Positions 161 through 19,000 of a stretch of 36,261 nucleotides of DNA are shown here, piece after piece. A program made the position numbers and the translations under genes. Below the pieces are notes generated by a model. That model saw only the letters and a list, made by a program, of their open reading frames with translations, was not told the DNA's origin and did no database searches. The first letter of the stretch is position 1, and every line of letters starts with the position of its first letter. The stretch is taken from the IMG/VR virus record IMGVR_UViG_3300029448_000153, positions 1-36,261 of that record; one strand, given 5' to 3'. The DNA is from a virus.

Positions 161-1258
161 TTAAGGATTCTTAAATTCCTGTATTCTGCCCTCAAAAACT
201 GTTACTGCTCCGTAAAGCATGTCTGAGACAACTTTAGTACCTAAGAAGTCAACAGAATACTCTGACTGAACTCTTGGCTCTAATTGTCTAGCTGCACTTA
301 CCGCACTTGGATGAAAAATGTATCCAACTTCCACGCCAGTAGAGCCTGATGACCCCATGACTGTAGAGTGAAGAACAGGCATGCCATAAAGCATTCCTAT
401 TTGACCATTTTTCAATGCTGATGGGCCTGCACCCATCTTAGAAGCATCTACAAAATCACTGATTCCAAGCATCGCTGTATAAAGCGCTGGTGAAACCACG
501 AAATTACACTCGTTAGTGTCTACATCCGCTTCCATGAGAGTTTTCATTCCCCCACGAATCTCGGCTGCTGTGATTGTGTTGTCTGTTCCTAAAGCAGTTG
601 AATTAGTAGTCGCTGCTTCAACTTTTGATTCTATAAAAGCATCGTAAGTTTTTGCAAGGCTATAAGCCATCCCACTAACTTCTTTCTCAAAAAGTCCTGG
701 AATTGACTGTACTGATGCTATATCTTCTACTAATTTTGCAGCGTAACGATGCTGGTCGATCGTAAGATCGGACTTCGCATGTGTTGAAGCTGCGTATGTT
801 ACTAATGTTTCTGCTGCCTTCGCCGCATCACTTACCTCTGCTAATTTGGGAATGTGAAAAACGTCCCCTCTACCTTTAACTAGACCGTTTAAAGAAGTAT
901 CCACACATTGTTCAAACACAAGGTTGCGTTCTAAATATGCTTTAATTCCATCAGTCCAAATCTCTGGTATAAAATTTGCCAATTTGTTATCATAAAGGCT
1001 TTTTATCCTTTATTTCTTTAGGTTTCCCTAAAGTTCGGCATATCTTTTCAATCATTTAGATTGTCGCGGCCTCTTGGATCTGTTATTTCAAGATCTATGC
1101 TCTGCCCCTGACCATACTTAGTATAGCCTTCGGTTCTGATTAGCTTATCTTACGACTTAGCCTTCCAGCTTAATTCCGCGATTTTATACCGCCACAAACT
1201 ATGTTCTAGCGGTAGTTGTAGTGACCGAAGCGCCAGCAAAATTCTCTGATAATGCCAT
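161..1258 (-). CDS. Major capsid protein, interrupted by a group I intron (join of 1258-1208 and 979-161)
   Basis: Exon 1 (1258-1208) encodes 17 residues, MALSENFAGASVTTTTA; exon 2 (979-161) encodes 272. The joined 289-residue protein reads TTTTAANFIPEIW across the junction, the usual N-terminus of this HK97-fold phage capsid family, followed by the typical segments RGDVFHIPKL and QHRYAAKLVED and a C-terminal VEVGYIFHPSAV. The ATG at 1258 has a Shine-Dalgarno sequence (GAAAGG) and lies 20 nt after the scaffold stop. Read without splicing, exon 2 could only begin at a poor TTG (982), would lack the N-terminus and would leave a 296-nt gap in a gapless operon; exon 1 would stop after 19 codons at TAG (1201-1199). 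The position after scaffold fits a capsid gene. Confidence 0.93.
980..1207 (-). ncRNA. ORF-less group I self-splicing intron in the MCP gene (228 nt)
   Basis: All core elements are visible. P1: exon UACCGCU (1214-1208) pairs with GGCGGUA (1193-1187), with the required U-G wobble at the 5' splice site. P10: exon 2 GCAAAUU (979-973) pairs with AGUUUGU (1200-1194). P3: UCGCGG (1181-1176) with CCGCGA (1069-1064). P4: CUGG/UCAG (1168-1165, 1139-1136). P5: GGCU/AGCU (1162-1159, 1145-1142), with AA joiners on both sides. P6 extension: CUAUAC/GUAUGG (1126-1121, 1117-1112). P7: GCAUA/UAUGC (1100-1096, 1042-1038), the latter preceded by the conserved AAGA. P7.1: GAUCU/AGAUC. P8: CAAUC/GAUUG (1063-1059, 1053-1049). 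P9: CUUUAGG/CCUAAAG closed by a GAAA tetraloop (1033-1016). A second hairpin, AAAGG/CCUUU (1011-994), follows. The intron ends in the obligatory G (980). The P7.1 hairpin suggests subgroup IA. There is no homing endonuclease inside. Confidence 0.95.
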
Positions 1259-2324: not shown

Positions 2325-3118
2325 CTGTAATACTGCTCCAAAGTTTGTGGCACTTTAAATGTTCTTCCCTTTTTTGTTGCTTTAGCAGCCATCCCTTGAT
2401 AAGCTACTTTAGCTTTCTGCTGTATATCCTTATTTTGAGTAGTCGGTGACAATGCAACCCACTGATGTCGACAATTAAATCCGCCACCGTCACGAAGTGC
2501 GCCTGGATATTTGGCTTCTACTTGCTCCTGTGTCATCCCACCTTCTTTCAACATCCGAATACATACTGGTCTGGTCTTAGAGTCCATTGGGCCATTGTAT
2601 ATTAATTTTTGCGTGGGGTTTTGTTCTAACTGTAATAAAGTGAGTGATCGTGAGTAGGTTGCCATTGAAGTGGTGATAAGCGTATCGACTTGATAGGGTT
2701 TTATAGATAAATCTCTTAACAACATAGCACTAATGTCTTTTCGAGGCATTTTCTGAAGTACCCCTTGCACTAATGATAATCGTACCCTCTCACTAATGTC
2801 GGTAGTGTATCTCAAGATAGAGGCTTGTTGCATGTTGCGTAATGCGACCAGTTGCGTTTCAGATACTTTACCAAAGAATACCGCATCATCTAATAGCGTG
2901 TCAAAACTGACCATTAAACGATTAACTGCTTGCTGCATCTGTAAATCAGCTAACCAGTAGTCTACCATAGAGATACCAGCCAAGATAGCTAGTATCTCCT
3001 CAGTAGACAACCCCTGCTCTCGTAATTCTTCTACGTCTTGGGTAAATTGATCTTGCGCTTCGGTAAGCCTAGCCTCGAAGTCTGCAACTGCACTATCAAT
3101 AGATTGAGATAATGGCAT
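2321..3118 (-). CDS. MuF/SPP1 gp7-like minor head protein
   Basis: 265 residues. The C-terminal part carries the MuF signature: MDSKTRPVCIRML, then GGGFNCRHQW near residues 180-230, with paired cysteines and a histidine. The N-terminal two thirds are helical. In related phages this protein is placed inside the head with the portal and helps head assembly or DNA entry. Its ATG overlaps the portal stop codon (TAATG), and it follows the portal as is usual in SPP1-like gene orders. No toxin domain is fused at the C-terminus. Confidence 0.82.
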   Translation of the reverse strand: MPLSQSIDSAVADFEARLTEAQDQFTQDVEELREQGLSTEEILAILAGISMVDYWLADLQMQQAVNRLMVSFDTLLDDAVFFGKVSETQLVALRNMQQASILRYTTDISERVRLSLVQGVLQKMPRKDISAMLLRDLSIKPYQVDTLITTSMATYSRSLTLLQLEQNPTQKLIYNGPMDSKTRPVCIRMLKEGGMTQEQVEAKYPGALRDGGGFNCRHQWVALSPTTQNKDIQQKAKVAYQGMAAKATKKGRTFKVPQTLEQYYR

Positions 3119-4446
3119 TAGCCTTGCAATCTATTTAAAAGCCTATTCTGTTCTGGTTGTGCTTCAGAATCATCTACTTCACTTAATAAGGCTTCTGCAT
3201 CTTCTGGAAGCATATCAGGATTCTTTAGCATTAGGTATGATTTTCTTGTGGCTAGCTTGTTCTGGAATAACCAGGTGAACATCTCTCGTTCTTCAGATGG
3301 TGATAATATCTGTGGCTCTTCAAAATCTACCAGATACTCATCGCTAAGTTTCTGGCCTGTCTGTACCTCGATAATACGCTTGTCAATTTCAAAGCGCTTA
3401 TGTTCCCAGGCTCTCCAGGTATCTTCGATGTTGGCTTGGACTTCGGAGTAGTTATCAATCTCTTGAACTCTCAAGGCTTCGGCTGATTCTGCATTACCGT
3501 GAGAGTCTATAAATTTTACACGAAGCTGATTATTATTGAGAGTAGTCTCGACCAAATACTTAGCACCTAAGATTAAGTCACTTATACTCGCAGATGGCCC
3601 AGTAACGCCAAAATTTGCACCTTCTGGGAGATATAAAATTTTATCGACTCCCATACTTATGCGAGATCTATCATCTACGCCTGTAACAAACTTTACACCA
3701 ATCGCACCCAGTCTGATACATAAGGATATTTCCATCGCTGCTACGGATAAGGCTAGGTCTGCTCTCACTACATCTTCAGCTCCCCCTACAAAGAAATCTC
3801 TGATCGGTGAATACTTGTGACAGAACGATACTGGTAAAATACCATAAGGATTTACATCCCCTTCGTTAAATGAGAACTTGTCGCCATTCGCATCAATACC
3901 AAAGTGTTTACCAGGCATACCTTCACGATCGGCAGTCCATACAATAAATTCTTGTTTAGCAAGCCTAGACATCCCTTCGTTCTCGATAGCATAGATACAG
4001 CCAAAAGGCTCTTTCTCACCAGGTAAGAACAACGGTTCTAAAAAGGGGAGTAACTCATACTCTACCTTGTTGCTTCTTGGATTCCAAAGACTGCGAAAAC
4101 CCATAGTTCCAAGTAGAAATGTAGTCTGCTCTAATTGTCTACGCTTAGAATTAAGGTCTTGTAGGTCTGCGAAATCTTGGTAGCGCTCATCGACCTTCAT
4201 ACGAGGGGGTCGTTTGTATGCTTGCCCTCTGGCCTTACATACACGCCTTGTTAGGTTCTGGGTGAACATAGGTACTTGCTGTAAGCTTTCGCTCGCAAAG
4301 TATTCGCCTACATAGTTCTCTATGTTTACGCCTTCGTAAAAATCAAGTAAATACTCACGCTCTCTTGTGCGTTGAGTCTCAATATTGCCTAGATAGTCTG
4401 ATAGGCTATCAATTATTAGTTGTTCAGATAGATCTTGTATTATCAC
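3118..4446 (-). CDS. Portal protein
   Basis: 442 residues, the usual length for an SPP1 gp6-like portal that forms the DNA-packaging ring at one capsid vertex. Features consistent with the family are an N-terminal helical region, a central beta-rich part (YELLPFLEPLFLPGEKEPFG), and a long helical stretch around residues 290-400 (AESAEALRVQEIDNYSEVQA, like the portal stem and crown). The start is GTG at 4446, overlapping the terminase stop by four bases (GTGA). It is flanked by the large terminase and the MuF-like gene, the canonical order. Confidence 0.88.
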   Translation of the reverse strand: MIIQDLSEQLIIDSLSDYLGNIETQRTREREYLLDFYEGVNIENYVGEYFASESLQQVPMFTQNLTRRVCKARGQAYKRPPRMKVDERYQDFADLQDLNSKRRQLEQTTFLLGTMGFRSLWNPRSNKVEYELLPFLEPLFLPGEKEPFGCIYAIENEGMSRLAKQEFIVWTADREGMPGKHFGIDANGDKFSFNEGDVNPYGILPVSFCHKYSPIRDFFVGGAEDVVRADLALSVAAMEISLCIRLGAIGVKFVTGVDDRSRISMGVDKILYLPEGANFGVTGPSASISDLILGAKYLVETTLNNNQLRVKFIDSHGNAESAEALRVQEIDNYSEVQANIEDTWRAWEHKRFEIDKRIIEVQTGQKLSDEYLVDFEEPQILSPSEEREMFTWLFQNKLATRKSYLMLKNPDMLPEDAEALLSEVDDSEAQPEQNRLLNRLQG

Positions 4447-5783
4447 CAGTCAATTACTCCTGCTTCTCTCGACTTTATAGGAAAAAGGTTACAGAAAAAA
4501 TATCTCGAAGCATCGTTTGCGTGGTCATTTAGACCATCCTTGAGTGGTTCTTCTTTAAGTCTTTGGTCTTTCTTCTTCTCTGGATAGCGATAGTTCTCAT
4601 AGCTAGATATAAACTTTTCGCATCTTTTATCGGCATAAAAATGAGGATTTCCAGCAGCATCCTCAAACCAGGTTCTCATGTGTGAGATACCGTTAGCGAT
4701 ATTGCGAGAAACTCTATCTTGCCTAAAGTCAACTCGAATACCTTTCTTTTTAAATATTTCTATATCACCAATACCACTTTGCGCTTGAACGCCACCGCCT
4801 GCTGGATCGCCAAAGTGACGAATAATCGGATAACCTTTCGCTTTCACTTTGTCTGCAAAGTCCTCAGTCTTGATATTCTCTTCCCATATCTCATCGATCA
4901 GATATACTTTATCTTTATCTTTGCGTTGCTCCACCTGAAAGAATCCTGCTGCGCTGGTTCTGTATCCAAAGTCGATACCCACATAGGTAGGAAGATCTGG
5001 GTTATACTTGAGTTTTTGGATGTGTATGGTGCGATCAAACGGAAAGACCCTTCCGCTGAATGAGGTGAATTGCGCTCCGAACTCTTGTTGCCAGGTTTCA
5101 TAGGTTAGTGTTTTCTTTAATTCTTCAATGTCATCTTTAAAAAATGGAGACTCCCAGCTTGGATGCTGCCAAGACTCCCAGTCTGGAAACTCCTCTGATT
5201 TTCCTCGTTGCCATAGGTCATATATCCAATTATATCCTTCAGGTGTTGTGGTAAATAATGCCCAACCAGCTCTATCGGCTAATGTCGGTCTTAAATATTG
5301 TTCCCATACAACCTTTCGTATCTTTGCTCCCTCTTCTACAATTAAATGGTCAATTCCTTCACCCACCAAACTTTCTGGGCGTTCGCAACTTTTTGCCCAT
5401 ACTTCGCTATTAAGTCCAGCTAGCTTTAAATAGTGTAATGCTCCACTAACTTCTTTCTTCGTTGCTATTGGAAGTCTCAGTTTTGTTAGAATGTCTATTT
5501 TTAATTCTCTAACAATTTTGTCTGCAAGTTCTAATGTAGGCGCACATATCCAGGTTCTCGTATTAGGAGTTAGGATGTACGGTAAGACTTCTTTAGCAGC
5601 ACTATAGCTTTTGCCTGATCGTCTGCCTTGCACATTGACTCTAAACCTTGCGGTCGAGTCGTGGACAGATTGCTGATTAGGCGAGGGCTGGTACTTGAGG
5701 ATCTTCCAGAGCTTCTGTTTGTTTAAAACTTTTCTTTTCAATCGGTGAATCTTCGTAGCCACACTCTTTGAGTAATCCCTCAA
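4443..5783 (-). CDS. terL: Terminase large subunit
   Basis: Packaging ATPase and nuclease. Walker A is GRRSGKS near residues 53-59, Walker B is LIVEEGA near 150, and the motor motif FTTTPEGYNW follows. The RNase H-like nuclease domain has the acidic residues of YVGIDFGYR, RHFGDPAGGG and, near the C-terminus, HANDASRYF. About 446 residues, normal length. There is no ATG: the frame opens after a TAG, and the candidate starts are TTG at 5783, GTG at 5762 or TTG at 5741, all inside the end of the small-subunit gene. The overlap implies translational coupling. The TTG at 5783 is used here but not proven. Confidence 0.93.
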   Translation of the reverse strand: MRDYSKSVATKIHRLKRKVLNKQKLWKILKYQPSPNQQSVHDSTARFRVNVQGRRSGKSYSAAKEVLPYILTPNTRTWICAPTLELADKIVRELKIDILTKLRLPIATKKEVSGALHYLKLAGLNSEVWAKSCERPESLVGEGIDHLIVEEGAKIRKVVWEQYLRPTLADRAGWALFTTTPEGYNWIYDLWQRGKSEEFPDWESWQHPSWESPFFKDDIEELKKTLTYETWQQEFGAQFTSFSGRVFPFDRTIHIQKLKYNPDLPTYVGIDFGYRTSAAGFFQVEQRKDKDKVYLIDEIWEENIKTEDFADKVKAKGYPIIRHFGDPAGGGVQAQSGIGDIEIFKKKGIRVDFRQDRVSRNIANGISHMRTWFEDAAGNPHFYADKRCEKFISSYENYRYPEKKKDQRLKEEPLKDGLNDHANDASRYFFCNLFPIKSREAGVIDW

Positions 5784-6721: not shown

Positions 6722-6750
6722 TTGCATTAAGTAATATGTGTTACTATATT
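6722..6750 (+). promoter_or_regulatory. Early promoter candidate 2 (sigma70-like)
   Basis: TTGCAT at 6722-6727, a 17-base spacer and TATATT at 6745-6750, 36 bases before the first early start codon. Together with the candidate at 6669 it forms a tandem pair. Confidence 0.5.
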
Positions 6751-6785
6751 TAACCATGTTAAAGAACACAACGAAAGGAAATGAA

Positions 6786-6998
6786 ATGAACGAAACACTC
6801 GAAACTGCAAAAGAACTTGGAAATGATTATTTAATAAAAGGACTCCAAGAAATCTTAATTCTAATGAATGCTGATTTATATTCATTAAATGGAGAATTGG
6901 AAGTTGAAATGATTGAGAACGGAATAACTAAACTTGACGACACTCAAAGAAACGAAGTTTTGCAAATGGTTATGGCTTTGTTGAAGGAGCGTAAATAA
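6786..6998 (+). CDS. Early protein of unknown function (70 aa)
   Basis: The start is taken at ATG 6786, preceded by AACGAAAGG in a leader shared with other early genes; the open frame extends further upstream but without a ribosome-binding site. The protein is acidic and helical (MNETLETAKELGNDYLIKGL) and matches nothing I can name. It is the first gene behind the two early promoters, and its TAA overlaps the ATG of the next gene. Confidence 0.7.
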   Translation: MNETLETAKELGNDYLIKGLQEILILMNADLYSLNGELEVEMIENGITKLDDTQRNEVLQMVMALLKERK

Positions 6999-7321
6999 TG
7001 TTTATTGAATTCAAAGATGATGAGCTTAAAAGTTATATTAATGATTCCATAAAAGAGTGGAAAGAAAATGAAACTTTCACCGATGAATGGAAAGAGGATT
7101 TGCATTTTCATTTATTTAATGAGGATTATTATATAATTGGCACTTATAAAGCTACTCAATGGCTAGAGGATAAAACATTTCAAGTAATAGAATATATAAA
7201 GCAATATGAGCTTAGTAATTGTGGCGAAGTTATAACGGATTTTTCTAGCGCTGAGCATGTTGTTAATATGTTTGCTTATATAAGAGGCGAGGAATTATTG
7301 CAAGAAATGGATTTGATATGA
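6998..7321 (+). CDS. Early protein, conserved-looking phage hypothetical (107 aa)
   Basis: Acidic and aromatic-rich, with a central FHLFNEDYYIIGTYKATQWL and a C-terminal VVNMFAYIRGEELL. I believe related sequences occur as small hypothetical proteins in other marine phages, but I cannot give a function. Its stop overlaps the next ATG (ATGA), so the genes are coupled. Confidence 0.7.
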   Translation: MFIEFKDDELKSYINDSIKEWKENETFTDEWKEDLHFHLFNEDYYIIGTYKATQWLEDKTFQVIEYIKQYELSNCGEVITDFSSAEHVVNMFAYIRGEELLQEMDLI

Positions 7322-7521
7322 TGACTAAGCACGAAATAAAAATCAAAAGAAAGCCATTGATATTTGGCTTGAATGCTTGGGAAGTTTTCAAGATTACCCA
7401 TTTAGGGCAAAGGCAAATAATAAGCGTTATATATAAGGGTTTTGATCTTAACAACGCCTTAGAATTTGCAAGGGAAGAAAGAACACATTTCAACAACTCA
7501 ATACTAATCGTGGAAGGATAA
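7318..7521 (+). CDS. Early protein of unknown function (67 aa)
   Basis: A small basic protein starting at ATG 7318, overlapping the previous stop by four bases (a second ATG follows at once at 7321). No motif is recognised. Four bases separate it from the next gene. Confidence 0.6.
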   Translation: MMTKHEIKIKRKPLIFGLNAWEVFKITHLGQRQIISVIYKGFDLNNALEFAREERTHFNNSILIVEG

Positions 7522-7525
7522 GAAA

Positions 7526-7987
7526 ATGAAAAGCGTAAATAGTTTATTAAATAAGTTGGCTTTGAATCCAATGACATTTGGACAGATGCAATTACATGTA
7601 TTTAAGCGTTCAAGAAATTATAAATCTTGGAAGGCTCAAGGGTTGGGAGATAAAGCGCCTCGTGGTTATTGGTGCGTAGCTTTTAATATCCTAACAAATA
7701 AAACGAAGGTTATTAAAAAGAATAAAGAAAACAACCTTTATTATTTAACCCCCATAGGTGAGAATATTAAAAAACCAATGAGTATTAAAGAGGCTCAAAA
7801 GTTTGCATATTATTGGGAGGAAAGAGATAGAAGAAATTTAACTCATATTGAATCGCAATTTAGAAAGGAAAATGAATTAAGGCTTGTTATAAAGGACTTT
7901 TTAGAGGTTGACCCAATGACATTAACGCCCAATGATTATAGGACTTTTTTAGAGCTAATAAGCAAGGATTTAATAAATATTGGATAA
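7526..7987 (+). CDS. Early protein of unknown function (153 aa)
   Basis: Basic, Lys/Arg/Asn-rich, with aromatic patches (KAPRGYWCVAFNILTNKT) and a helical C-terminus. No family recognised. It starts at ATG 7526 just after the GGAAGGATAAGAAA ribosome-binding region. Its TAA (7985-7987) touches the first base of the hammerhead ribozyme, so self-cleavage would leave this gene at the 3' end of the upstream RNA fragment, directly followed by the ribozyme. Confidence 0.65.
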   Translation: MKSVNSLLNKLALNPMTFGQMQLHVFKRSRNYKSWKAQGLGDKAPRGYWCVAFNILTNKTKVIKKNKENNLYYLTPIGENIKKPMSIKEAQKFAYYWEERDRRNLTHIESQFRKENELRLVIKDFLEVDPMTLTPNDYRTFLELISKDLINIG

Positions 7988-8044
7988 TTACTACTGATGA
8001 GCTTTTAAAAAGCGAAACGCCCCTTTTTTGGGGTGTCTAGTAAT
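7987..8044 (+). ncRNA. Type I hammerhead ribozyme
   Basis: The complete conserved core is present. Stem I: AUUACUA (7987-7993) with UAGUAAU (8038-8044), 7 bp, open-ended. Core: CUGAUGA (7994-8000). Stem II: GCUUU-UAA-AAAGC (8001-8013). Core: GAAA (8014-8017). Stem III: ACGCCCC (8017-8023) with GGGGUGU (8030-8036), a U6 loop and one G-U pair. Cleavage is expected after C8037 in the GUC triplet. Both ends leave through stem I, which defines type I. It fills the whole space between two early genes, so cleavage would cut the polycistronic early mRNA and give the downstream gene a 5'-OH leader starting at U8038. The UAA loop of stem II is short, so tertiary contacts and speed are uncertain. Confidence 0.93.
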
Positions 8045-8062
8045 AAAACGAAAGGAACTGAA

Positions 8063-8428
8063 ATGAGCATAGAAGAGATGAAGAAATTAATGGATAAAGA
8101 ATTTAATTATAAAATGGATTTTAAAAATTGGGATGAAAATAAATTTATTAATTATTTAAATGACTTAATGAACGGAAGAACTGAATTTTACCTTGATGAG
8201 TTTTTCCCAAAAGAGGTTGTTAATAATTTTTTAGCTGATATTTTCAATACAACTACTAATAAAAATAAAAAAGCTCTTGAAAAAGGAGGAGCGCAAATAA
8301 ACATCCGTTTAAAAGATGGCAAGATGATTGTAAGACATACAAATCAAGAGGGCGTATTATTGCACGAAAGAAACTGTTTTAATGGCGAGTGGGATGAGCT
8401 TTGGGAATTTATTAGAAGAAGTGATTAA
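8063..8428 (+). CDS. Early protein of unknown function (121 aa)
   Basis: The start is at ATG 8063, after AACGAAAGG at 8048-8056. The upstream in-frame GTG at 8033 lies inside stem III of the ribozyme and is rejected. The protein is rich in Asn, Lys and Asp (MSIEEMKKLMDKEFNYKMDF) with no recognised domain. It is the first gene of the RNA released by the hammerhead ribozyme. Confidence 0.65.
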   Translation: MSIEEMKKLMDKEFNYKMDFKNWDENKFINYLNDLMNGRTEFYLDEFFPKEVVNNFLADIFNTTTNKNKKALEKGGAQINIRLKDGKMIVRHTNQEGVLLHERNCFNGEWDELWEFIRRSD

Positions 8429-8441
8429 TTAGAACTCAAGA

Positions 8442-8520
8442 TTTTTATATTATAGACCAAAGGGTTTTTATATTATGGATCAAAGGGTTTATTAAGATTT
8501 TTATATTAACAACGAAAGGG
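8442..8520 (+). repeat. Three copies of the 23-nt early repeat
   Basis: Units at 8442-8464, 8465-8487 (head to tail) and 8498-8520. Each reads TTTTTATATTA, then a variable part, then AAAGGG. The third copy is identical to the one at 8818-8840. The block lies directly before the gene at 8527, and the final AAAGGG is placed to act as its ribosome-binding site. Confidence 0.85.
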
Positions 8521-8526
8521 TAGGAA

Positions 8527-8784
8527 ATGGAAAACGTAAAAGAATGTGAATGGTGTGGTAAGGAAACCGATAAACCACTAGAAAGAAACTTTGCTCAAGA
8601 TAAGTGTTGCGTAGATTGTATCGATGAGGCAAATGAGAGAACAAGGTTTTTTCAGAATTGGGGCGATGTTGGTAGAATGGGTAGGGTTGATGCAGAAGAG
8701 ATGATTAATACATTAATAAATCGTTATGATGTATCATTAGATGAATTGAATGATATATATTTTGAAAATCAAAGGAATAGATAG
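8527..8784 (+). CDS. Small zinc-ribbon early protein (85 aa)
   Basis: The N-terminus has CEWCGKE at residues 7-13 and KCCVDC near residue 27, a treble-clef-like zinc-binding pattern. The C-terminal half is acidic and helical (DAEEMINTLINRYDVSLDEL). It may bind nucleic acid or protein. The ATG is six bases behind the repeat copy ending at 8520. Confidence 0.7.
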   Translation: MENVKECEWCGKETDKPLERNFAQDKCCVDCIDEANERTRFFQNWGDVGRMGRVDAEEMINTLINRYDVSLDELNDIYFENQRNR

Positions 8785-8793
8785 GTGGAGTGA

Positions 8794-8840
8794 TCTTATA
8801 TTATTTCACTAAGGGTATTTTTATATTAACAACGAAAGGG
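8794..8840 (+). repeat. Two copies of the 23-nt early repeat
   Basis: Units at 8794-8815 (TCTTATATTATTTCACTAAG then GG) and 8818-8840, the latter identical to 8498-8520. They occupy most of the space between two early genes; the second ends seven bases before ATG 8848. Confidence 0.85.
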
Positions 8841-8847
8841 TAATAGA

Positions 8848-9039
8848 ATGAAAAAAGTAAAAGATCTAGATCATAAGTTATGGTTATACGAACACTTAGA
8901 TAACTTAAATAATAATACACAAGAATTAATGAGTGGATTATTAGATGGCAGTATAGAAATTAAAGATGTTTCACAATTCTTTTTAGACTATGCAGAAGCA
9001 AGTGAAGAAAACCATATTTTTTATAGTGAGGTGGAGTGA
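8848..9039 (+). CDS. Early protein of unknown function (63 aa)
   Basis: A small acidic helical protein (MKKVKDLDHKLWLYEHLDNL). Its TGA overlaps the ATG of the next gene by one base. No homologue recognised. Expression probably starts from the repeat-associated leader just upstream. Confidence 0.6.
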   Translation: MKKVKDLDHKLWLYEHLDNLNNNTQELMSGLLDGSIEIKDVSQFFLDYAEASEENHIFYSEVE

Positions 9040-9236
9040 TGGAATATCATTTTTACGAATCTTTATATATGGATAAAGATGATTTCGATAATCATACACC
9101 AATAGAAAAATTGGAGAATTTTTATAAGGTTTTAGAACATAGAAGGTTATTTAGTACCGATTCTATGATATTTACATCAGACCTTAAGGAATTTAAAGCA
9201 ATCATCAAGGACATTAAAGAAAGCGAGGTTGAATGA
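9039..9236 (+). CDS. Early protein of unknown function (65 aa)
   Basis: The ATG at 9039 is preferred over GTG 9036; it shares a base with the preceding stop, and GAGGTGGAG supplies a ribosome-binding site. The protein is acidic and aromatic (MEYHFYESLYMDKDDFDNHT). No domain recognised. Confidence 0.6.
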   Translation: MEYHFYESLYMDKDDFDNHTPIEKLENFYKVLEHRRLFSTDSMIFTSDLKEFKAIIKDIKESEVE

Positions 9237-9283
9237 TTTTATATTATTTCACTAAGGGTATTTTTATAATTAATAAGAAAGGG
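9237..9283 (+). repeat. Two copies of the 23-nt early repeat
   Basis: Units at 9237-9258 and 9261-9283. The first is nearly the same as 8794-8815; the second is a diverged copy (TTTTTATAATTA, then GAAAGGG). They lead into the gene at 9291. Confidence 0.8.
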
Positions 9284-9290
9284 TATTAAA

Positions 9291-9614
9291 ATGAATATTG
9301 AAATAGATGAAAAAGATGTAGACCTATTAATTCATTCAAGCAGTGGAAGTTTTGCGCAAGATCAACCTAGTAGATTTGAAAATTACACATATAAAGGTGT
9401 AAAGTTTAAAGATTGCCATGATAATGGCTCAATGCATTATGTAGATAGTTACTTAGATGCCTTAATTGTTTTCAAATGGTATTGTAATGAAAAAAATCTA
9501 AAAGCTTCTATAATGTGCGATGTATATATAAATGATAAAGATGAGTTTTGTTCAGAATGGTTAGTGTGGACTGAAGAGGATTTTGAAAAGAAAATGAAAG
9601 AAAAATATAACTAG
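9291..9614 (+). CDS. Early protein of unknown function (107 aa)
   Basis: An acidic protein (MNIEIDEKDVDLLIHSSSGS) with a Trp/Tyr-rich middle. It is the last gene of the early operon and converges on the minus-strand gene at 9611, overlapping it by four bases, with no terminator between. No family recognised. Confidence 0.6.
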   Translation: MNIEIDEKDVDLLIHSSSGSFAQDQPSRFENYTYKGVKFKDCHDNGSMHYVDSYLDALIVFKWYCNEKNLKASIMCDVYINDKDEFCSEWLVWTEEDFEKKMKEKYN

Positions 9615-12417: not shown

Positions 12418-13549
12418 GTAATTTCCTTAGTAACACTCTAATTGCTCTCTCTGCCATCTGTGGCACTACACCATTCCCAAGCAACCTTAATCTGTCCACT
12501 CGGTTGGTAATTGAGTCCACCCCACTGGCAATCCCATCATCTGTTCCACCCAATTCGGATTGAGTACGCTTGGTGACTCTTGGCTCTTCCCATTCGTACT
12601 GCTCTTGCCCTGGTCTAGTAGGCCAGCTTGCTTCGGTAATGACATTTGATGGTTTTTTAAACTTTTCCATTTTTTAAAATCTCCTGTATCTTTCCAATCT
12701 CTAGTTGTAGGGGTTTGCCAACCCTTCTCTATTTTTACTTGATCACCTAATCCTACCGAATGCGAGTCTTTACCATCTTTAGTTAATCTCCTACCTTTTT
12801 CGTTTAACTTCATATCTTTATGCTCGATAGTATCTTGCGTTGTTGGTGTCGCCCACGCTAATTCTCTCTGTACTGCCATCGCTAAATTCACCGATCTGCC
12901 ACTTCCAGCTTTAGTTTTACCTTCTGCTACCGCTATCTTAACTCTAGCTCTTCTCTCCTCTAACTGCTTGCCAGATATTTCCCACGGTATTCCATCACTA
13001 ACATTGGTCGCATCTGCGGTAGGCCAAGATAAACACTCTCTTCCGCTGGTGTGGAGCGCCAACTTCACTCGCTGAGAATACTCCCCACGATGTTCGATAA
13101 CCTCTTTCTTCCAAATCTCCGAGGACATACTTGAGTACCGACTCGCCATCGGCTGTTTTACTTGAGATAATCCCTTGGACGTTTTCGAGAACAACATAAG
13201 TTGGTCTGCACTCTGAGATTCCTTTTGCGATGTAGGGGTAAAGGTGTCGAGGATCTTCTGTGGAAGCTCTGCGACCAGCGGCGCTGAACGGTTGGCAAGG
13301 AAAGCCTGCTGAGAGGAAATCCACTTTTCCATAAAATTCTTTGTATGGGAAGGTCTTAAGATCCGTGTAGATAGGTGTCGCATATAAGTAACCCTTTTCC
13401 ATCTTCGCAACCAAGTTTGCGATAGCGAAGGCTTCGATCTCCACATAAGCGACTTCTCTGACATTTGGGAAAATTCTTCTGAGTCCACGCCCAATACCTT
13501 CATATCCTGTGCATAATGATAAATGGGTAAGTTCTTTGGTATAATCCAC
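12410..13549 (-). pseudogene. Cytosine-5 DNA methyltransferase broken by two compensating frameshifts
   Basis: The N-terminal part (13549 to ~13025, GTG start after AAGGAG) has motif I (LSLCTGYEGIGRGLRR), the catalytic motif GFPCQPFS, the ENV motif (VVLENVQG) and HQRKRVFILA. Coding then continues in another frame (~13025 to ~12500) through the target-recognition region: WPTADATNVSDG, WATPTTQD, WQTPTTRDW and NPNWVEQMMGLPVGW. It returns to the first frame for the final motif VDRLRLLGNGVVPQMAERA, ending at 12410. The two shifts cancel: an apparent extra base near 13025 and a missing one near 12500. This may be sequencing error, a decayed gene, or split polypeptides. An intact enzyme would protect phage DNA from host restriction. 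Confidence 0.8.
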
Positions 13550-13550
13550 A

Positions 13551-14087
13551 TCATAGCTCCTTATGCAATTTATTACAAACCTCTTTTAATATTTCAGTAG
13601 AAGGTCTTTCGTCAAAAGATTCTTTTATAATATCACGCTGAAACTCACCAAATCTATTAAATTCCATTAAGTATAAAGGTACATATTGAATAAAATCAAT
13701 TTGTTGCCACCAAGCATAGTAATTATTAATTCTTATATCTGTTAATCTTGAATGATTTTCTATTTCAACTATAAAAACACCTTTCTCATCAAAAATGTAG
13801 GCATCAGGCAGACCAATTGGCCTTTCGTAATCTTCCGAACAAACATTCCATTTTTCTATTGCATATTTTTTAGCTTCTTTGTGAAAACCATAAAGTCTCA
13901 ATGATGGGAAATTTCTATGTATCTTTTGAATTTGTAGTTTTTGAAGTTCATAGGTACTCTCTTTCATACTATTAGGTTTGTTTCTTTTTAACATTAGATG
14001 CTTCAATACATCATCGTGGGGTGTTTTAGTTTTCCAGTTTTTTAATTGAGTATCCATAGTTATATACTTATCAGTTTTCATTCTCAT
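13551..14087 (-). CDS. Possible PD-(D/E)XK-like protein beside the methyltransferase (178 aa)
   Basis: The middle segment LPDAYIFDEKGVFIVEIENH (about 93-112) looks like the PD...ExE core of a PD-(D/E)XK nuclease, with Asn where Lys usually stands, followed by a conserved-looking NNYYAWWQQID. It could be an inactive or divergent nuclease. The place next to a DNA methyltransferase invites a restriction role, but the ATGA overlap ties it equally to the RecB-like nuclease upstream. Fold assignment is tentative. Confidence 0.5.
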   Translation of the reverse strand: MRMKTDKYITMDTQLKNWKTKTPHDDVLKHLMLKRNKPNSMKESTYELQKLQIQKIHRNFPSLRLYGFHKEAKKYAIEKWNVCSEDYERPIGLPDAYIFDEKGVFIVEIENHSRLTDIRINNYYAWWQQIDFIQYVPLYLMEFNRFGEFQRDIIKESFDERPSTEILKEVCNKLHKEL

Positions 14088-17877: not shown

Positions 17878-17896
17878 CTAATGAGGATTAGTGAAA

Positions 17897-19000
17897 ATGG
17901 CTAAAATTACACAAATAAATGATGATAAATATCTTATAAAGTATATTCCAGAGGGATATAGACAATTATATAAAAACCCTTACCGATCTATAACAATTAA
18001 TGGTAGGGAAAAAGCATATACTATATATAATGATGCAAGTTTAATTGAAGAGCGTGACCGTATTAGCTTGAAATTAAGTGGTAAAATCAACTCAACAAAT
18101 GTTATAATTCCAGAGCTAACTATCGGTGTTATATTTAAAGTATTTAGGGTAAATGCAATACCTTATAAGCAATATGCGGTTAAAACCATTAAGCGCTACG
18201 AAGCATTAATGAGTAAATTAGAAAATGACTTAGGAATGGATTTTCCATTCTGTAAAATTAATTATCCTTTCTATTTTAAGCGCTACGGAAACCCTAATAA
18301 GAAAAACTCTGGTCTATCAGACTTGCGATGCTTAAACCATATCGGTAATTGGACTAGGGAACAGATTTCTGAGGGCAATATTAGGGGTACAATCAACGCA
18401 AAACCAATAAAGCTACCAAAGGCTACCAAGAGCAAAAAGAACGCTTTAAAGCCTTATCAGTTAGATATGATATTTGACCATAAAGATATATGTCCTATTA
18501 CAAAAGCTATCATTGAACTTTATATTTTAACTGGGTGTCGTATTAGTGAATTATGTAGACCAGACTTTACTTGGAATCAAATTGATATGGAAGGCGAAGT
18601 CGCTTATATAAAGAACAAAGGGCATAAAAAAGAATTTGATACTCCGCTAGAGATTCCTTTTTTAAAAGACCATCATCAGAGATTGATTAAAATCATTAAT
18701 GATTACTTTAAAACTATACACGATGAAGCACATATCTATCCGATTCCTATAAGTTCAAAGAATGTTTACGATAGAATCGTAGTTGCAAGTGATACTGTCG
18801 GTTTTAAGTTCACACCGCATGACTTTAGAGATACTTCCGCTACAATTCTATTAAGAGAATCTGGGAATATCTATGCAGTAAAAGAGCATTTAGGTCATGC
18901 AAATGTAAAAGATACGGAAGATGCTTATGCTGATTGGATTATGGATGATAAGAGAAAATCATCAAACTCTATAGTTAAAGGATTGAATCGATTAACTTAA
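17897..19000 (+). CDS. int: Tyrosine-recombinase integrase
   Basis: About 368 residues from ATG 17897, with AGGA nine bases upstream; GTG 17891 is less likely. The catalytic residues are visible: Arg in LTGCRISEL (about 215), Lys in NKGHKKEFD, HDFR (His and Arg), the second His in EHLGHANVKDT, and Tyr in EDAYADW near the C-terminus. An N-terminal core-binding domain precedes them. It integrates the phage genome by site-specific recombination, so the phage is temperate. The 3' end converges on and overlaps the last late gene by nine bases. I could not identify attP. Confidence 0.95.
   Translation: MAKITQINDDKYLIKYIPEGYRQLYKNPYRSITINGREKAYTIYNDASLIEERDRISLKLSGKINSTNVIIPELTIGVIFKVFRVNAIPYKQYAVKTIKRYEALMSKLENDLGMDFPFCKINYPFYFKRYGNPNKKNSGLSDLRCLNHIGNWTREQISEGNIRGTINAKPIKLPKATKSKKNALKPYQLDMIFDHKDICPITKAIIELYILTGCRISELCRPDFTWNQIDMEGEVAYIKNKGHKKEFDTPLEIPFLKDHHQRLIKIINDYFKTIHDEAHIYPIPISSKNVYDRIVVASDTVGFKFTPHDFRDTSATILLRESGNIYAVKEHLGHANVKDTEDAYADWIMDDKRKSSNSIVKGLNRLT

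Follow-up and report, generated by a model that had tools for sequence, protein, structure and literature searches.

Gene context of the locus

The stretch of DNA analysed here (the window) is an IMG/VR record of 36,261 bases with a G+C content of 37%. Judged by its gene content, it is a tailed, probably temperate phage. The genes for the major head protein, the terminase large subunit, a primase, a DnaB/RecA-like ATPase and an exonuclease are all located on the minus strand, and a plus-strand ORF (17891–19000), read by eye from the sequence, is presumably a tyrosine integrase. A DNA methyltransferase-like ORF lies at 12487–13554 on the minus strand (PHROG 1008, E = 2.6e-12). The only match to the terminase in GTDB genomes is a distant Poribacteria MAG (38% identity), and therefore no host is assigned.

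Nine small genes form a plus-strand block (6738–9614), which is flanked by the terminase and structural genes and by the primase, helicase and exonuclease genes, all on the minus strand. The ribozyme site lies between the fourth and fifth genes of this block. The original prediction called these early genes, a label that the position of the block, between minus-strand structural and replication genes, leaves unsupported. The features that concern us are the following:

161–982, minus strand: gene for the major head protein
4443–5783, minus strand: gene for the terminase large subunit
7526–7987, plus strand: upstream gene, 153 aa (ORF)
7987–7993, plus strand: 5′ strand of stem I, AUUACUA (sequence, fold, alignment to covariance model R1)
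7994–8000, plus strand: catalytic core CUGAUGA (sequence)
8001–8005/8009–8013, plus strand: stem II hairpin GCUUU/AAAGC, 5 bp, UAA loop (sequence, fold)
8014–8017, plus strand: core GAAA, comprising G12, A13, A14 and A15.1 (sequence)
8017–8023/8030–8036, plus strand: stem III ACGCCCC/GGGGUGU, 7 bp, U6 loop (sequence, fold)
8037, plus strand: C17, base after which cleavage is predicted, GUC^U (hammerhead consensus)
8038–8044, plus strand: 3′ strand of stem I, UAGUAAU, predicted 5′-OH start of the downstream mRNA (sequence, fold)
8045–8062, plus strand: leader with an AAAGGA ribosome-binding site (8051–8056)
8063–8428, plus strand: downstream gene, 121 aa (ORF)

A7987 is both the final base of the upstream TAA stop codon (7985–7987) and the first base of stem I, and the downstream ATG at 8063 lies 25 nt past the predicted cut. 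The ribozyme had been said to fill the whole intergenic space; it does start at the upstream stop, but 18 nt of the 75-nt gap remain before the ATG. The stretch from 8042 to 8065 resembles the leader of the first gene of the block (6765–6788; D8 repeat, 88%), and AACGAAAGGNNNTGAAATG is found at 6770 and at 8047. A GTG at 8033 is in frame with the downstream gene, but it falls within the ribozyme without an evident ribosome-binding site, and the ATG at 8063 is preferred. The gap contains no sigma-70-like promoter match, by a consensus that may not be the host's.

The protein encoded by 8063–8428 has no PHROG match and no confident Pfam match. A search of viral contigs found no relatives of the 7526–7987 protein, and neither the DNA of 7400–8700 nor the two flanking proteins matched cultured phages. 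The AlphaFold model of the 7526–7987 protein is poor (mean pLDDT 51), so no fold or function is claimed for it. Elsewhere in the block, a 107-aa protein (6998–7321, PHROG 10208) has relatives in the hammerhead-bearing loci L176 and L192, and also in phages of Lactococcus and Enterococcus. In the three remaining wide gaps of the block (8429–8526, 8785–8847 and 9237–9290) there are imperfect copies of another element, TTTTATATTATTTCACTAAGGGTATTTTTATATTAAC...GAAAGGG before an ATG, which is promoter-like by eye and has one further copy in L121 near position 1679 (minus strand).

Structure of the ribozyme

As originally predicted, 7987–8044 on the plus strand is a complete type I hammerhead with an intact core and stems of 7, 5 and 7 bp. 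The invariant residues C3-U-G-A-N-G-A and G12-A-A, together with the A15.1/U16.1 pair, are found at 7994–8000, 8014–8017 and 8036. Stems II and III are closed by loops and stem I is open; stem III includes one G-U pair, and its count of 7 bp takes in A15.1-U16.1. The N-U-H triplet is GUC (8035–8037), and both the type I architecture and the predicted cut after C8037 agree with the hammerhead consensus. The minimum-free-energy fold of 7980–8052 is the hammerhead three-way junction, at −19.2 kcal/mol with a z score of −3.4. Stem III was also considered as an intrinsic terminator and was rejected, as the T run is located in the loop and none follows the stem.

Covariance model, Rfam scores and chance level

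Viral contigs carrying the hammerhead pattern were collected, and 50 type I examples were aligned (alignment A1) to give covariance model R1; the window phage and its terminase relatives are excluded from this training set. The covariation counts of A1 are partly circular, its rows having been picked for pairing, and are not taken as proof. Run without filters, R1 scores the window site at 62.4 bits (E = 3.1e-15). The same search finds no other hammerhead above 15 bits in the window, the next best site reaching 14.8 bits. As an outside check, R1 detects one element in Pseudomonas phage PaP3 (44116–44030, minus strand; 35.7 bits).

The covariance search in Rfam that had been proposed as a check did not recover the site, which falls under the curated gathering cut-offs of all families; at these thresholds neither the window nor 11 relatives give any match. 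The best matches, both sub-threshold, are RF03152 RAGATH-1-hammerhead (33.4 bits, cut-off 56.3) and RF02275 Hammerhead_HH9 (25.2 bits, cut-off 52). The upstream hairpin of RAGATH-1 was sought and rejected, as the candidate is weak and would fall within the 7526 coding region. About 40 R1-type viral type I hammerheads from 16 loci (L036, L035, L047, L064, L071, L031, L008, L101, L079, L060, L007, L113, L192, L237, L010 and L005) likewise score below the curated hammerhead cut-offs, and the silence of Rfam is therefore no evidence against the window site. Since the cut-offs miss hammerheads in the loci tried, phage annotation probably undercounts this class.

A search for type I hammerheads under loose criteria (at least 4 bp in stems I and III, at least 3 bp in stem II) returned one site in the window and two, both weaker, in 150 dinucleotide-shuffled windows, where the best stem total is 17 compared with the 19 observed. 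Together with the R1 E value, these counts bear out the earlier statement that a chance origin is very unlikely.

Hammerhead-like elements in terminase-related phages

The window terminase has 71 related loci among viral contigs. Eight of these contigs carry hammerhead-like elements 1.6–2.9 kb upstream of the terminase gene and on the opposite strand (2.2 kb in the window): L129, L133 and L135, which share one sequence; L150; L172 and L190, which also share one sequence; L176; and L163. The stem sequences of these elements differ from those of the window. Among the 32 loci with at least 3 kb of upstream sequence, seven have an element and 25 have no match (L150 is shorter). A single protein family is encoded by the gene that immediately precedes the element in the loci L172/L190, L176 and L163, and by the second gene before the element in L129/L133/L135. 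In an hmmsearch, the 7526–7987 protein is the best match outside this family (E = 5.1e-5; next unrelated protein, 0.41), and on this sequence evidence the upstream gene of the window and the genes that immediately precede the element in L172/L190, L176 and L163 are remote homologues. Across these phages the kind of gene that precedes the element is therefore maintained, whereas the sequence of the element varies. In L169 the next ATG comes so soon after the homologous gene that a ribozyme would not fit between them, and hence the element is dispensable rather than essential.

Several relatives carry damaged copies, which occupy the same kind of junction. In L129 and its twins L133 and L135, the core of a second copy reads CUAAAGA instead of CUGANGA (L129 7395–7464, minus strand); this copy keeps its stems despite the broken core. 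The second copy in L176 (1314–1378, minus strand) has a mismatch at the first pair of stem II. L163 contains two near-identical cassettes (2664–2732 and 3406–3475, minus strand), the downstream leader included, with U-U at the first stem II pair and GUA before the cut site.

Placement of viral hammerheads

We surveyed 229 unique viral type I elements among the matches listed, each with a stem total of at least 14 bp and the element of the window included. The rows come from pattern scans that demanded a consensus-like core and stems, so that some of the core conservation and pairing follows from the selection itself; the placement statistics are independent of this choice, but related phages are recounted where their element sequences differ. 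Random positions in the same contigs served as the null, and an ATG was counted when it opens at least 40 codons. Among these 229 listed matches, an upstream stop codon ends between −12 and +2 of C3 in 63% (null 7%), an ATG lies 15–50 nt past the cut in 73% (null 17%), and both apply in 52% (null 1.5%). In the same matches the stop lies at a median of +1 nt from the 5′ boundary of the element (IQR −2 to +4), the 3′ boundary at a median of 22.5 nt before the ATG and the cut at a median of 28 nt before it; in 23 of the 229 the stop codon is the core's own UGA, with its end 4 nt into the core.

For 64 type III elements among the matches listed, the 3′ boundary lies at a median of 17 nt before the ATG and the cut at a median of 64 nt before it, so the ribozyme stays within the downstream leader. 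Their stops are further upstream and their placement is less regular than that of the listed type I elements. The trait common to both types is therefore the packing between stop and ribosome-binding site together with a cut, not a leader of constant length. Much of this geometry is accounted for by genome economy, and cleavage may also be gated by translation.

The core is nearly invariant, in part by selection of the rows: CUGAUGA is identical in 185 of 219 viral model matches, nearly all the others being CUGACGA or CUGAAGA, and GAA is present in all 219. The stem I/stem II lengths among the matches listed are 7/5 (n = 12), 7/4 (n = 1), 6/5 (n = 17) and 6/4 (n = 113), a coupling (Fisher p = 6e-9, with related sequences not independent) that suggests, indirectly, that a tertiary contact between stem I and loop II may be kept in the class. 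With its 7-bp stem I and 5-bp stem II, the window belongs to a recurrent subclass. It shares with the intercistronic phage class a phage genome, co-directional flanking genes, a kept core and variable stems. Ribozyme series in one operon are frequent in the class, without being a strict rule, and R1 finds one copy in the window; 97 of 148 viral loci among the matches listed have a single ribozyme.

When 50 viral records were searched whole, the elements were found in same-strand groups that span no more than a few kb, with at most seven per record. The phage contig L113 combines four pistol matches with three hammerheads between 2399 and 5022. Along the gene run at 2813–5039, the junctions hold, in order, pistol, hammerhead, hammerhead, none, pistol, pistol and hammerhead, so that six of seven are occupied, and the fourth pistol precedes the first gene of the run. 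The other 49 records contain no pistol match, and mixing of the two folds is therefore rare in this sample. The mixture in L113 implies that the selected trait seems to be cutting between genes rather than one particular fold.

Proposed function and alternative explanations

We consider it likely that the element is a cis-acting type I hammerhead that splits the operon transcript into two mRNAs; transcription of the block as one unit, cleavage in the cell and an effect on mRNA fate are what we infer. Once RNA polymerase has passed 8044, stems I, II and III would close and the RNA would cut itself co-transcriptionally after C8037. The upstream mRNA would carry four genes, through 7526–7987, and end just beyond the stop codon of the last one, its 3′ end consisting of the folded stem II/III domain and a terminal 2′,3′-cyclic phosphate. 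The downstream mRNA, from the 8063 gene on, would begin with a 5′-OH and a 25-nt leader able to hold a ribosome-binding site. The phage would probably gain from this by having each half of the operon as a message of its own, degraded and translated at its own rate. As the original prediction had it, the best-supported role is the processing of a polycistronic mRNA, and the intercistronic placement is right, but the idea is an already published suggestion for phage hammerheads (PMC3088659).

Division of the transcript is the reading best supported by the intact structure, the 62.4-bit score, the elements of the relatives, the survey geometry, the clusters, the mixture in L113 and the literature. 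The 25 of 32 relatives without a match, L169, the damaged sister cores and a geometry that may in part be simple packing count against it. One alternative, which we regard as unlikely, is that a ribosome ending the 7526 gene keeps stem I open, so that cleavage is largely confined to transcripts with little translation and the downstream message depends for its fate on how the upstream gene is translated. The type I stops among the matches listed, within a few nucleotides of the 5′ boundary (median +1, IQR −2 to +4) and provided by the core's own UGA in 23 of 229, would fit this model, but packing in compact genomes alone would give the same overlap, and the listed type III stops are further upstream and less regular. 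Equally improbable, in our judgement, is a selfish or neutral cassette that moves with stop/ribosome-binding-site junctions by phage recombination, its cleavage tolerated and useless. The twin ribozyme-leader cassettes of L163, the core-damaged copies in L129, L176 and L163 and the patchy presence would fit such a history; near-invariant cores beside variable stems (partly by selection), the coupling of stems I and II (7/5 vs 6/4, Fisher p = 6e-9), which suggests a kept tertiary geometry, and the pistol ribozymes at equivalent places in L113 argue against it.

The remaining explanations carry far less weight. That the conserved feature is a stabilising 3′ or 5′ hairpin, with catalysis incidental, seems very improbable: sister copies with broken cores do keep their stems (L129 7395–7464), but a hairpin needs no CUGANGA/GAAA/GUC core, which the window and nearly all viral copies keep. 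A chance match is practically refuted, since the loose motifs that occur in shuffled windows (2 in 150) stand against the independent model's E value of 3e-15, comparable elements in related phages and a regular placement.

We suggest, tentatively and with less than even confidence, that many phages punctuate operons of small genes by placing self-cleaving ribozymes between a stop and the next ribosome-binding site, and that hammerheads of types I and III and pistol ribozymes are interchangeable in this role. Such a system would do with RNA alone what RNases or tRNAs do in other forms of transcript processing, and the ribosome at the embedded stop might gate the cutting.

Comparison with known systems

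The window ribozyme belongs to a large and already partly described class, for which transcript processing has been proposed: Perreault et al. (2011) suggested that phage hammerheads serve to process long transcripts of the phage (PMC3088659). In vitro, cleavage was shown for tandem prophage hammerheads, and those of Agrobacterium were also active in E. coli (PMC3088659). Ribozymes associate with each other and with phage genes (PMC10085705; PMC4604425), and a 2023 paper calls the reason for the hammerhead associations unknown (PMC10085705). The regularity of their placement makes the question of their purpose easier to test. What the present analysis adds is placement statistics and concrete test cases, namely the stop-ribozyme-ribosome-binding-site regularity, the phage in which a second, unrelated ribozyme occupies the same kind of junction, and the sister copies whose cores are damaged. 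No description of an overlap between hammerhead and stop codon was found in the open-licence literature.

RF03152 and RF02275 have the core and type I order of the window, which scores far under their cut-offs. The pistol ribozyme (RF02679), an unrelated self-cleaving fold, takes equivalent stop/ribosome-binding-site junctions in L113 and is absent from the window. Type I hammerheads of phages and prophages resemble the window in core, type I order and intergenic site, but often occur in series. PaP3 is named as having an intergenic hammerhead (PMC3088659); the R1 element of this phage overlaps the stop end of ORF67 at 44113, upstream of ORF66, and its tie to the published element is at the level of the phage. 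Compared with hammerheads of the PaP3 type, the window has different stems (7 bp in stem I, 5 bp in stem II), a single copy and a cut nearer the ATG (25 nt). In the haloarchaeal viruses HF1/HF2, the hammerhead lies 13 nt before a helicase gene, and a transcript 5′ end maps within three nt of the cut (PMC3088659). HF1/HF2 differ from the window in a core variant, an archaeal host and the helicase gene, but share with it a hammerhead placed shortly upstream of a start codon.
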